Both the position numbers and the translations under genes were made by a program. From assembly GCA_022447625.1 (NCBI GenBank), contig JAKVAX010000006.1, positions 62,001-126,000 on the forward strand: 64,000 nt of DNA, written 5' to 3'. Each line of letters begins with the position of its first letter. Positions within the stretch are counted from its first letter, which is position 1. The DNA is from Flavobacteriales bacterium. Its GTDB lineage: Bacteria > Bacteroidota > Bacteroidia > Flavobacteriales_D > Sanyastnellaceae. The notes beneath the pieces are model-generated. The model made no database searches, had not been told where the DNA came from, and saw nothing but the letters and a program-made list of their open reading frames with translations. Positions 37,703 through 58,185 of the stretch are shown one piece after another.

Positions 37703-38359
37703 CTAACTGTGAAGCACGGAAAAAATTGTACTCCAGCTTCCTGAGGCCGAATAATTCAGGGCCACGATTGCATTCTTAGTGTGCTCATTCAGGGCCCGCA
37801 GCGTACTTTTTCCTTTCGCAATTACCTTCGCTCCTTCGGGGAGTTGCTGCTGCGAAACGAATGACTCCACGTTACTCGGACTCGTAAAGAAATACGCATC
37901 ACACTCCGGAATGTTCACCGGATGCAGGGAAGTAGTGTAAATCGTTTGTTCTAGTGCTTGACCTTCAGCCAGTTGTTCTTGGACCGTTCGAATCGATCGA
38001 TCGCTTGTTGGGAAAAGTACCTTACTTTCACCAATCAGCGATTTGAACTGTTGCGCCACCTGCTGGGTGTCTCCCTGGCCTATGAAGTCAATTGGAATGT
38101 GAGGAGGTGCAGCTTCCGCGCTAGCGTTGCCTATGACTCCTATCTTCAAATCAGTTGTGGGATGTTGTTCGAAGAAGTATCGCGTTGCCCGAGGTGAAGA
38201 AAGAAACACCCACTTCGCATCATCTGGAATGGTGATGGACGTTGGTTCACTCGAAATCAGCGATTGTTGAATCAGCTCAATTCCCCAGGCATTTGCGTGC
38301 CTGGTTAAGGTTTGGTTTTCGTCAGAACTGATAAAGACGGTCTGGCCTAGGCTTTTTTT
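37703..38359 (-). CDS. hemD: uroporphyrinogen-III synthase lacking a usual start codon
   Basis: HemD cyclises hydroxymethylbilane to uroporphyrinogen III. Recognisable HemD features are VFISSDENQTLTRHANAWGI, PDDAKWVFLSSPRATRYF, KIGVIGNASAEA and VNIPECDAYFFTSPSNVESFV. The frame is open from just after an in-frame TAA (38362-38360), but contains no ATG, GTG or TTG before GTG at 38209, which would drop the first 50 residues. The frame is continuous with hemC if ribosomes slip -1 on the nine A at 38361-38353, giving a HemC-HemD fusion. A 13-mer copy lies inside (38114-38126), read as ASAE. Confidence 0.85.
   Translation of the reverse strand, partial: KKSLGQTVFISSDENQTLTRHANAWGIELIQQSLISSEPTSITIPDDAKWVFLSSPRATRYFFEQHPTTDLKIGVIGNASAEAAPPHIPIDFIGQGDTQQVAQQFKSLIGESKVLFPTSDRSIRTVQEQLAEGQALEQTIYTTSLHPVNIPECDAYFFTSPSNVESFVSQQQLPEGAKVIAKGKSTLRALNEHTKNAIVALNYSASGSWSTIFSVLHS
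38114..38126 (-). repeat. 13-mer repeat CGCTAGCGCGGAA, copy 5
   Basis: Exact copy, sense within hemD, reading ASAE. Confidence 0.95.
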
Positions 38360-39240
38360 TTAAGCATCATTAACATGTCTTCCACAAGGGAAACGGGGTC
38401 TGTTCCTTGTAGCGAAGCATATCGTGATGGAGCCTCAGCCGATTCTGCGACAGCGCAGAACAAATGATACTGATCACCTTCTTTTGTGCAATGGGCACCA
38501 AAAGGAAGCTGGCAACCGCCGTCTAATTCGCGAAGAAGGGTGCGTTCAATACGAACATTGGCGGCGTCACTGGTATTCGTGAGCTGCTTCAATTGATCAA
38601 GTCTCGGATCATTGTCGCGCATTTGAAATGCCAAGGCACCTTGCGCCGGAGCAGGGATGAATTCGGTAGGATCCATGTCTACCACTTCGAATTCAGAAAG
38701 GTCAAGTTCAAGACGTTTGATACCTGCCTTTGCCAGTACGATCGCGTCGTATTGACCTTGACGAAGCTTATCGATGCGTGTTGGTACATTCCCACGAAGG
38801 TCATTCGTAATGCACTGCGGAAGGTGGAACTTAAGCTGCGACTTGCGACGAGCAGATGAAGTACCAATCACAGCGTCTTCGGCTACTTTGAATTTGACGT
38901 TCTGAACGGCTTTTTCCTTTCGAATTAGCAAGACATCTTCTACGAAGCTTCTGTCAGGCACAGCAGCAATGCAAAGACCTTCAGGCTGATGCGTTTCCAG
39001 ATCTTTATGCGAGTGAACGGCGAGATCTACGGCGCCAGATAGTAGCGCATCTTCAATCTCCTTGGTGAAGAATCCCTTGCCCTCCATCTTGTCAAAGCTG
39101 AGGTGTTGGATCTTATCTCCCTGAGTCTTGATGATCGTAATCTCACTTTCAATTCCGATCGAAGAAAGTAGTTCTTGGCTATGGTGAGCTTGCCAGAGAG
39201 CGAGATCGCTTCCTCTGGTACCAATGATGATCTTCGACAT
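38347..39240 (-). CDS. hemC: hydroxymethylbilane synthase (porphobilinogen deaminase)
   Basis: The 297-residue enzyme polymerises four porphobilinogens into hydroxymethylbilane. It starts KIIIGTRGSDLALWQA, has VAVHSHKDL-like AVHSHKD with GKGFFTKEIEDALL, the GTSSARRKSQL block and the cofactor-binding Cys243 in ELDGGCQLPFGAHC. Length is normal. It ends MLMMLKKKA-stop, whose codons sit on nine consecutive A. Its start codon overlaps the hemA stop, so hemA, hemC and hemD form one operon. Confidence 0.96.
   Translation of the reverse strand: MSKIIIGTRGSDLALWQAHHSQELLSSIGIESEITIIKTQGDKIQHLSFDKMEGKGFFTKEIEDALLSGAVDLAVHSHKDLETHQPEGLCIAAVPDRSFVEDVLLIRKEKAVQNVKFKVAEDAVIGTSSARRKSQLKFHLPQCITNDLRGNVPTRIDKLRQGQYDAIVLAKAGIKRLELDLSEFEVVDMDPTEFIPAPAQGALAFQMRDNDPRLDQLKQLTNTSDAANVRIERTLLRELDGGCQLPFGAHCTKEGDQYHLFCAVAESAEAPSRYASLQGTDPVSLVEDMLMMLKKKA
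38351..38361 (-). promoter_or_regulatory. A9 slippery run at the hemC-hemD junction
   Basis: On the minus strand CTT is followed by nine A and GCC TAG (hemC stop). In the hemC frame A-AAA-AAA satisfies the X-XXY-YYZ rule for -1 slippage. Moving back one base gives AAA AGC CTA GGC, which leads into the hemD frame. The run could also cause RNA polymerase slippage. Function is inferred. Confidence 0.45.
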
Positions 39241-40457
39241 TAGTTGCGGTTGGCATTTTCAAGCATCACTTCACGAGCGAGCTTCATCGGGACACTAATG
39301 TATTTCTTTTCCATGTAACCCAAGATCTTATGGAGGAGCTCGATGGATGCTTCATCCATCTGATTTAGTTCTTTAGAGAAGACTTCTCCAAGGGCAGTTT
39401 CCTTGATCTGTTTGATCAGGTCAGGAATCTCACGCATCGCAAGCTCAATCTCACGTTGACGAAGGATTACTCGGAAGTCTTCCATCGCTTCATCCAAGAT
39501 CTCCTTACAACGATCAAGCTCTCCTTTGCGGACTTCAATGTTGCGTTGTGCTTCGGCTTGCAATTCAGTCATGCCGAGGTAGCGCACACAATCATCTTCT
39601 TTCACATCGTCAGCAACATCAGCCGGAAGGGCCATATCGATGATAAAGAGTTGGTCAGACCAAAGTCCTGAAAGAAAATCAGTCGTGACAATTGGCTCTT
39701 CACTACCGGTGCATGTAACGACCGCGCGGTAATGCTTTTCGGTAGGGATGTGGTAGAGTTGCACTGCTTCCCAGTTGTTCGCTTTAGCAACAGTGATAGC
39801 GCGTTCGAGTGTGCGGTTGGCTACGGTCACATTGCGGTACCCCTCTTTCGAAAGGAAACGCGCGAAATTACCGTTGGTTTGTCCAGCCCCGATTAAGAGG
39901 ATGGCTTCGTCTTTGGCAATGTTCTGGGCTTTGAAGTTTTTCCACGCTAGTGAAACCACAGAGACAGGTTTCGTCGCGATAGCCGTATCAGTGTAGATGC
40001 GCTTTGATGTTTCGATGACTTTCTTCGAAACCAAACGCAATAAATCTCCTGAAATCATCCATTCGCGAGAGTCTTCGAATGACTTGCGCACCTGGGTGAT
40101 GATCTCGCGTTCACCAATGACCATTGAATCAAGCGAAGCACCCACTTCAAGTAAGTGGCGCATTGCTTCTTCTCCGCGGTAGCTTTGGAAGCTAGCTAGC
40201 ATTTGTCCTTTCTCTTTTCCTTCCACCCCAAAGAAATCAAGCAATTGGTTCTCTCGTCCTTTACAGAAGTAGCTGTTGCTAGAGAAAATAAACTCCACAC
40301 GATTGCATGTGCTTAAAAAGGCCAATTCCTGCACCTGAAGATGCTCCTTGAGGTCGTTGAGGAAGTGCGCACGCTTTTCTTCATCGATATGTAATTTACC
40401 GATGAGTTCAAGCGGGGCATGCTTGTGAGTTATGGCAATGATCTGAAGATTCTCCAC
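39240..40457 (-). CDS. hemA: glutamyl-tRNA reductase
   Basis: The 405-residue enzyme reduces glutamyl-tRNA to glutamate-1-semialdehyde, the first committed step of the C5 heme pathway. It opens ITHKHAPLELIGKLHI and has catalytic Cys51 in FLSTCNRVEF, then GEREIITQVRKSFEDS and the NADPH-binding ILLIGAGQTNG. The C-terminal dimerisation helices are present. It heads the hemA-hemC-hemD operon; hemL, encoding the next enzyme, is 16 kb away. Confidence 0.96.
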   Translation of the reverse strand: MENLQIIAITHKHAPLELIGKLHIDEEKRAHFLNDLKEHLQVQELAFLSTCNRVEFIFSSNSYFCKGRENQLLDFFGVEGKEKGQMLASFQSYRGEEAMRHLLEVGASLDSMVIGEREIITQVRKSFEDSREWMISGDLLRLVSKKVIETSKRIYTDTAIATKPVSVVSLAWKNFKAQNIAKDEAILLIGAGQTNGNFARFLSKEGYRNVTVANRTLERAITVAKANNWEAVQLYHIPTEKHYRAVVTCTGSEEPIVTTDFLSGLWSDQLFIIDMALPADVADDVKEDDCVRYLGMTELQAEAQRNIEVRKGELDRCKEILDEAMEDFRVILRQREIELAMREIPDLIKQIKETALGEVFSKELNQMDEASIELLHKILGYMEKKYISVPMKLAREVMLENANRN

Positions 40458-56883: not shown

Positions 56884-58185
56884 ATGATCAGTCGAGATAA
56901 ATCAGCATCCCTTTTTGTGACCGCAAATCAGTACTTCCCAGGTGGAGTTAATAGTCCGGTACGTGCATTTCGTTCAGTTGGTGGAACACCTTTGTTTATC
57001 GAGAAAGGTGACGGTCCATACATCTGGGATGCCGATGGGAATAAGTTCATCGATTTCTGTTGTTCATGGGGTCCACTGATCCTAGGACACAACAATCCTA
57101 AGGTTCGCAAGAACATCATTGGAGCAGTTGAAAACGGAACTTCCTTTGGTGCGCCAACTGTTTGGGAGAATAAACTGGCTGAGACGATCATATCAAATCA
57201 CCGCTACCTCGAAAAGATTCGCTTCGTGAGCTCTGGAACGGAGGCGGCGATGAGCGCCATTCGCCTAGCGCGAGGGGTGACAGGAAGAAGCAAGATCATC
57301 AAGTTCGAAGGGTGTTACCACGGACACGTAGATGCACTTTTGGTCAAAGCAGGTAGCGGCTTGGCTACGCTAGGAACGAGCACAAGCGCTGGGGTTCCCG
57401 AGGCTTATGCTCGTGAAACCATCGTATTGCCATTGAATGATAGAGCGGCTGTTGAACAAGCGATCGAAGACTACAAAGACGATATTGCTTGTGTCGCGAT
57501 TGAGCCGATTCCTGCGAATAACGGTCTGTTGATTCAAGATATTGAATTCTTGCGTTTCCTTCGAGAGGTGACCAAGCGAGAAGGCATCATCCTATTGTTT
57601 GACGAGGTCATCTCTGGTTTCCGCGTTGGCTTTTAAGGAGCTGCTGGTCTGTATGATATACAACCGGATGTCTTAGCTTTCGGTAAAATCATAGGTGGTG
57701 GAATGCCTGTAGGTGCTTACGCTTCTAGCGCTGAAATTATGGCGCATGTTGCTCCTGAAGGCGACGTTTACCAAGCGGGTACCCTGTCAGGAAACCCAGT
57801 AGCGATGGCTGCAGGTACGGCGCAGTTAGAGGCATGTTTGGAAGAAGGCTTCTACGAAGAACTTGAGCGTAAGACGAAGTTGTTGATCGATACCATCTTG
57901 ACACACACGAAGGCCAAAGGCTACCAGTTTAACATGTTCCATCGTGGATCTGTATTCTGGTTAGCATTTAGCGATAAGATCGCCATTCGTAAGTCGTCAG
58001 AGATTGATCCTGATAGCATGAAGTACTTCACGGTGCTTCACAAAGAGCTACTCGATCGAGGTGTTTACATTGGCCCTAGTGGCTACGAAGTAGGTTTCGT
58101 TTCTGCGGCACATTCAGATGAAGATATTCTCGCTAGCGCGGAAGCGTTTAAGGCCGCTTTGGATGTGGCGTTCTCAGCTGAGTAA
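56884..58185 (+). pseudogene. hemL: glutamate-1-semialdehyde 2,1-aminomutase with an in-frame TAA
   Basis: HemL converts glutamate-1-semialdehyde to 5-aminolevulinate. The first part (codons 1-250) runs from YFPGGVNSPVRAFRSVGG through RFVSSGTEAAMSAIRLARG to IILLFDEVISGFRVGF. TAA at 57634-57636 then interrupts, and the same frame goes on with GAAGLYDIQPDVLAFGKIIGGGMPVGAY, including the PLP-Lys at codon 268 (57685-57687). Only a single substitution from CAA or GAA is needed to restore it. The protein would otherwise be normal length (433 codons). It has a 13-mer copy at 58131-58143. It is either a sequence error, a real nonsense mutation or readthrough. Confidence 0.9.
58131..58143 (+). repeat. 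13-mer repeat CGCTAGCGCGGAA, copy 7
   Basis: Exact copy, sense near the 3' end of hemL, reading ASAE. Confidence 0.95.

Follow-up and report, generated by a model that had tools for sequence, protein, structure and literature searches.

The −1 ribosomal frameshift of Escherichia coli dnaX occurs at the motif A AAA AAG. The hemC-hemD junction described here resembles it in having a poly-A heptamer and a shift in the −1 direction but differs in that its runs comprise 9 to 10 A and in that no conserved Shine-Dalgarno (SD) sequence or hairpin was found. In Thermus thermophilus dnaX, nine A in a cellular gene likewise lead to two products, according to background in the available text of PMC1088944. 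There, slippage is established and yields the shorter product, whereas at hemC-hemD, where slippage is deduced from sequence, ordinary decoding gives the shorter product and slippage would add a second enzyme. The same available text (PMC1088944) describes mxiE, in which one nucleotide added at a run likewise joins overlapping frames (mxiEa and mxiEb) and gives a longer product. The mxiE run consists of U's and connects two halves of one gene, while hemC and hemD encode two enzymes of one pathway and the junction between them recurs in 12 genera.

Natural HemC-HemD fusion proteins have the same domain order, length (a median of 515 aa), and linker position as the slippage product predicted here. 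However, they are encoded by one continuous frame, whereas the locus studied here needs a frame change. HemC fused to CobA-HemD is described for Euryarchaeota in the available text of PMC11237513. The GeneTack survey of frame transitions (PMC3711429) makes no mention of hemC, hemD, porphobilinogen, or uroporphyrinogen, and these terms are likewise absent from the available text of a recoding review (PMC5009743). The open-literature matches listed, a scope outside which most subscription papers fall, contain no report of hemC/hemD recoding. Within the literature searched, the kind of mechanism is known, while the gene, the breadth, and the way the junction recurs amid fused and split genes appear to be new.

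We analyzed a 64,000-nucleotide stretch of DNA (the window) from a Flavobacteriales genome (G000; 3.9 Mb, 99.8% complete). The junction lies on the minus strand and comprises the following features:

39240..40457, minus strand: hemA-like reading frame directly upstream of hemC, named from reading the sequence.
38347..39240, minus strand: hemC, hydroxymethylbilane synthase, 297 aa as the unslipped product, ending LKKKA-stop.
38353..38361, minus strand: A9 run, the candidate slippery site, read as hemC codons AAA AAA AAA and conserved in congeners G001 and G002.
38347..38349, minus strand: TAG stop of hemC, 3 nt past the A9 run.
38360..38362, minus strand: TAA in the hemD frame, closing hemD upstream of any start codon.
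37703..38359, minus strand: hemD, encoding the uroporphyrinogen-III synthase domain in an open −1 frame whose 5′ end lacks ATG, GTG, and TTG.

The final base of the hemA-like frame is the first base of hemC, and the gene order is hemA-hemC-hemD. At its 3′ end, hemC reads CTT AAA AAA AAA GCC TAG. The hemD frame reads TAA AAA AAA AGC CTA GGC CAG ACC GTC TTT ATC AGT and remains open after the TAA up to the stop ending at 37703. Its first ATG, GTG, or TTG is a GTG at 38209, at column 47 of the HemD profile built here. A TAG stop and a frame change at the junction thus separate the two genes, and the window holds no continuous HemC-HemD reading frame. The anatomy given by an earlier sequence-only reading of this DNA, namely, the end of hemC, the A9 run, a −1 hemD frame behind a TAA, and no standard start before the conserved region, was confirmed in every part. 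We refer below to junctions with a start-less hemD in the −1 frame behind at least nine A as slip junctions or slip loci. The palindrome GCCTAGGC, also pointed out in that reading, does exist at the hemC stop but is not conserved: Of 18 slip junctions, just two share it, that of the window and that of the 97%-identical sister, and it was rejected as a functional element. No A9 or T9 other than the hemC run occurs in the window. Since dinucleotide shuffles of the window expect 1.48 such runs (one is observed), the presence of one A9 is unremarkable; what is remarkable is its place and its conservation.

The product of hemC matches the Pfam families PF01379 (E = 3.4e-70) and PF03900 and scores above the curated cutoff of the NCBIfam model TIGR00212 (E = 2.6e-82; 276.1 bits, with a cutoff of 164 bits). 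The −1 frame matches PF02602 (HEM4) with E = 6.5e-18 and 65.1 bits, the curated cutoff being 27.5 bits, and this cutoff was passed at all 18 slip junctions. Five NCBIfam HemD models match the window hemD, each below its own cutoff. A single-sequence search of the PDB with HemD returned nothing at E ≤ 1, and a profile made from the window HemD and 14 relatives matched solved uroporphyrinogen-III synthases, the best being 3p9z (4.4e-17).

We propose that hemC and hemD would function as one recoded gene. Unslipped decoding would give HemC (297 aa, ending LKKKA). Were the A9 run read as one A longer, decoding would continue in the hemD frame, past the TAG of hemC, to yield a 512-aa fusion with the junction LKKKSLGQTVFISS; this fusion would be the sole route found here for making the window HemD. 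The likeliest actor would be an RNA polymerase adding an A while transcribing the run. Overall, we consider it probable that slippage at the A run yields a HemC-HemD fusion in addition to HemC, with RNA polymerase a likelier agent than the ribosome. The occurrence of slippage, its mainly transcriptional nature, and the use of both products are our inferences.

One added A joins hemC to hemD at all 18 slip junctions, giving predicted products of 512 to 521 aa counted from the HemC match start; at L218, a case found later, the product is 520 aa. The predicted linkers at the 18 loci always contain KKK (for example, LKKKSLGQTVFISS, IKKKSLKPTRVFISR, and LKKKVEPKRVFISK), and the fusion peptide predicted for the window, SLGQTVFISSDENQTLTR, lies directly after KKK and 5′ of any standard HemD start. 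Unslipped HemC measures 295 to 304 aa in slip loci versus a median of 295 aa in start-codon loci, both counted from the match start.

The sequence-only reading had suggested comparing the junction in relatives. Both congeners examined have kept the A9 run, and one of the two assemblies is a single contig. In G002 (97% HemC identity, single contig), the junction reads CTT A9 GCC TAG, and in G001 (62% HemC identity, two contigs), it reads ATT A9 GCC TGA. In both, hemD occupies the −1 frame and the junction offers no standard start; the G001 hemD has a TTG within the domain, at profile column 11, and, as read by eye, a CTG at the junction. The run is therefore retained at 62% HemC identity while its flanks diverge. 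Lysine is encoded by AAG 468 times and by AAA 393 times (46% AAA) in the 45 open reading frames (ORFs) of the window, and A9 is kept in the genus nonetheless. Between G000 and G002, hemC has a dN of 0.015 and a dS of 0.373, and hemD has a dN of 0.043 and a dS of 0.254. The resulting hemD dN/dS of 0.17 shows that the −1 frame is under purifying selection.

To place this junction among its relatives, HemC was searched in 60 relatives of the window (46 with a match), 305 genomes of its order (271 with a match), and 396 genomes of the class (246 with a match). Three families with an already known slip case were searched in greater depth for that reason (HemC in 29 of 35, 10 of 10, and 6 of 8 genomes); these sets overlap. 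A scan of named genomes contributed the best 80 loci of at least 536 candidates. Some named-genome records bear the titles of other groups (such as Candidatus Planktophila and Chryseobacterium gleum MAGs) and were kept. HemD was located with a profile seeded from 13 start-codon loci; a simple motif scan had missed many genes. A-runs were scored over the 60 nt preceding the hemC stop plus the stop, and a start codon was sought near the projected HemD start. Collapsing loci whose junction (or, for fusions, whose fused gene) was identical in sequence reduced 213 loci to 173 distinct ones and, by the same rule, 253 loci (the 213 plus 40 check regions) to 207. Four hemL loci were excluded from the counts. 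The regions were picked by hand, mainly from non-fused matches, rather than at random, so the proportions given below are not prevalences.

The first set of 173 loci contained 111 separate adjacent hemD genes, 49 in-frame fusions, and 13 loci without hemD. Every one of the 18 loci with a run of at least nine A had a start-less hemD in the −1 frame, while a start codon was present at all 93 loci with shorter runs. The 40 further regions, which served as a check, added one new case (L218, with A10, from a sixth family) and one exception (L219). After pooling, the 207 distinct loci comprised 143 with a separate adjacent hemD, 49 fused, and 15 in which no hemD was found, some of the latter at contig ends. 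Among the 143, hemD was start-less and in the −1 frame at 19 of 19 loci with at least nine A, leaving no long-run locus with a start, and a start codon was found at 123 of 124 loci with eight A or fewer, the remaining one being start-less (Fisher’s exact test, 9.5e-23, a value that ignores kinship). Runs were A9 in 15 and A10 in 4 of the slip loci; A8 was found twice among the surveyed loci, both times with a start codon. Counting that of the window, the 19 slip genomes belong to 12 genera and 6 families of Bacteroidia (f1, f4, f6, f7, f17, and f24), of which f17 and f24 lie outside the order of the window. Outside this order, most HemC among the matches listed sit in frames of ~500 to 600 aa.

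The long runs are also concentrated where slippage would join the two genes. In 160 loci, 20 runs of at least nine A fall within 11.2 kb of junction windows versus 9 within 722 kb elsewhere; the 20 are the 18 slip cases, L044, and L107. The hemC stop lies no more than 4 nt from the run in 14 of 18 slip loci, compared with 13.9% of 588 positions in fused genes that served as controls (binomial, 1.8e-9, with related rows treated as independent). L044 is an in-frame natural fusion that carries A9 in its linker, LLKKKSSPKRIFISR. With one more A at this site, decoding would yield HemC alone (296 aa), the converse of the window case. The closeness of a stop after slippage in L044 was considered as a signal and found uninformative, as a stop is equally near in 17 of 49 fused controls. 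L107 was scored as a short-run locus because only the 60 nt before the hemC stop and the stop itself were scored; its hemD has a GTG start followed immediately by A9, beyond the hemC stop. Slippage at this A9 would break hemD rather than fuse it.

By profile, no hemD was found beside hemC in L042, L050 (Saprospira grandis), L062, or L095 (Phaeodactylibacter), and these genomes may rely on another HEM4.

A sequence or assembly error, with the true run one A longer and the gene a plain fusion, had been raised as an ordinary explanation in the sequence-only reading. Homopolymers are error-prone, and most slip genomes are drafts, many of them MAGs. Against this stand the 19 genomes that all show the −1 relation, two of them single-contig (G002 and G579), the four loci that read A10 and would need A11, and the natural fusion L044, which reads A9 in frame. 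Given A9 in the congeners and the recurrence of equivalent A9/A10 junctions in 19 genomes of 12 genera, an isolated error is very unlikely, and we give the error explanation hardly any credence. The same junctions lend support to the earlier suggestion of slippage on the A run, whether by ribosome or polymerase. That reading had also named relatives with an ATG-started hemD as evidence against slippage. Such relatives do exist in the same family (for example, L007, L009, and L010), but the longest A-run in their hemC tails is 3 or 4.

HemD might instead be a separate product that arises through termination-reinitiation on a non-standard junction codon (ATT, ATC, or CTG) or from an internal start. 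L219 (in G046) shows that a start-less hemD can occur without an A-run: It lies in the −1 frame, and the longest run in the hemC tail is A5. This locus may reflect an erroneous indel, initiation at a non-standard codon, or a different type of shift. Two loci were scored as start-less despite nearby candidates, L003, whose junction has a CTG and whose profile column 11 has a TTG, and L141, which has a GTG 109 nt upstream. However, 123 of the 124 short-run junctions have an ATG, GTG, or TTG, and the start-less state coincides with at least nine A in 19 of 20 cases. Moreover, the first internal starts lie at profile columns 11 to 90 in 17 of 18 slip loci. Separate synthesis of HemD is therefore improbable, and slippage at the run remains the preferred reading.

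A heptamer of the A AAA AAG type needs a run shorter than nine. The run is never below nine among the 19 slip loci, which supports slippage in transcription, as does the codon phase of the run, which varies (0, 1, or 2) among 18 junctions. At least nine A/T lie at the frame transition, as for poly(A) slippage. According to the available text of PMC1088944, selection against A/T runs becomes apparent at a length of nine in a large share of bacterial genomes. In the window genes (45 ORFs, 54 kb), synonymous shuffles expect 0.83 runs of at least nine A, 3.2 of at least eight, and 8.5 of at least seven; 1, 1, and 3 were observed, respectively. Runs of 7 to 8 A thus look scarce in these genes, and no avoidance is seen for A9.

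We regard programmed −1 ribosomal frameshifting at an A AAA AAA or A AAA AAG heptamer as a possible though rather doubtful source of the same product; the mRNA would then stay unedited, and the process would parallel that of E. coli dnaX. By inspection, each of the 18 runs holds one of these heptamers in the right phase. The shift is always −1, which counts against the polymerase because a ribosome must give −1 while a polymerase could also use deletions. In addition, Bacteroidia use frameshifting with rRNA-mRNA pairing in prfB (523 of 726 genomes; available text of PMC8710568). RNA folding over the 60 nt downstream is in slight excess at slip junctions (mean z of −1.00, n = 18) compared to start-codon (−0.37, n = 40) and fused loci (−0.05, n = 40). 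This weak tendency could hint at a ribosomal stimulator, but the folding z is inconsistent within the genus (+0.95, −1.05, and −0.80), upstream SD-like 4-mers occur at just 4 of 18 slip junctions, and no conserved stimulator was found. Neither A7 nor A8 occurs at any of the 19 slip loci, which also speaks against the ribosome. Polymerase slippage is reported on runs of eight or longer in the available text of PMC3711429. As A7-A8 runs also allow polymerase slippage in some reports, the lack of slip loci with A8 is not a clean discriminator between the two mechanisms. Slippage by RNA polymerase is the reading we lean toward.

We also considered whether hemD may be dying, with a second HEM4 gene supplying the activity and the frame break being neutral. 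A second HEM4 with an open frame of 250 to 274 aa is present in all 18 slip genomes tested, so the junction HemD may be non-essential. The second copy is, however, also present in all 24 fused or start-codon genomes chosen as controls; it therefore looks ancestral and is probably not a rescue acquired together with the slip state. In addition, the −1 frame lacks an internal stop at all 18 junctions, and the dN/dS between G000 and G002 is that of a constrained gene. Decay of hemD is thus an unlikely account of the junction. Altogether, the second HEM4 (PF02602; G000:C5:40319-40933 and equivalents) was found in 42 of 42 Bacteroidia genomes tested, mostly as open frames of ~246 to 280 aa. It is not adjacent to hemC and lies a few kilobases away in some genomes.

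Elsewhere in the window, hemL (positions 56884..58185, plus strand; named from reading the sequence) has an in-frame TAA at 57634..57636. The hemL copies of G001, G002, and G003 are open frames of 455 to 484 aa, so the TAA in the window is either a recent nonsense change or an assembly error.

The evolution of the slip state was followed on trees built from the HemD profile match together with HemC through residue 262; in a few rows, the HemD match takes in residues that the run encodes. A careful tree of 58 hand-picked rows requires 9 changes of the slip state, of which well-supported branches force at least 6, and slip forms one clade in 0% of bootstrap trees. A quick tree of 160 rows needs 11 changes, at least 4 of them forced. 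Family f24 contains a genus in which all five loci are slip and, as its sister, a genus in which all five are fused, each clade having a support of 100; in f4, two slip genera lie outside a clade of three start-codon loci. A phylogenetic sign test of run length against start loss on the 58-row tree gave six agreeing pairs, none opposing, and one tie (P = 0.031). The same test on the 160-row tree (P = 0.5) has no power, since just two well-supported independent pairs are available there. The best reading of these results is that the junction is a labile state among true fusions and start-codon split genes that has been entered or left several times in Bacteroidia. Because the trees do not separate gain from loss, a bridge between fusion and split is a matter of interpretation. 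We give an even chance to the view that poly(A)-linker slippage is a recurrent, reversible bridge between the fused and split states, in which polymerase slippage would buffer frame-breaking indels and permit gene fission. In this view, the enzyme pair would have gone more than once in Bacteroidia through a recoded stage yielding HemC and the fusion from a single locus.

On our reading, the fusion-slip-split series would be a natural one for testing gene fission and indel tolerance by slippage, and hemC-hemD junctions would offer a clean comparison of polymerase and ribosome slippage. If our reading is correct, a gene finder would probably record such a hemD as missing or start-less, and a core enzyme pair of the heme pathway would depend on a decoding slip in many Bacteroidia.
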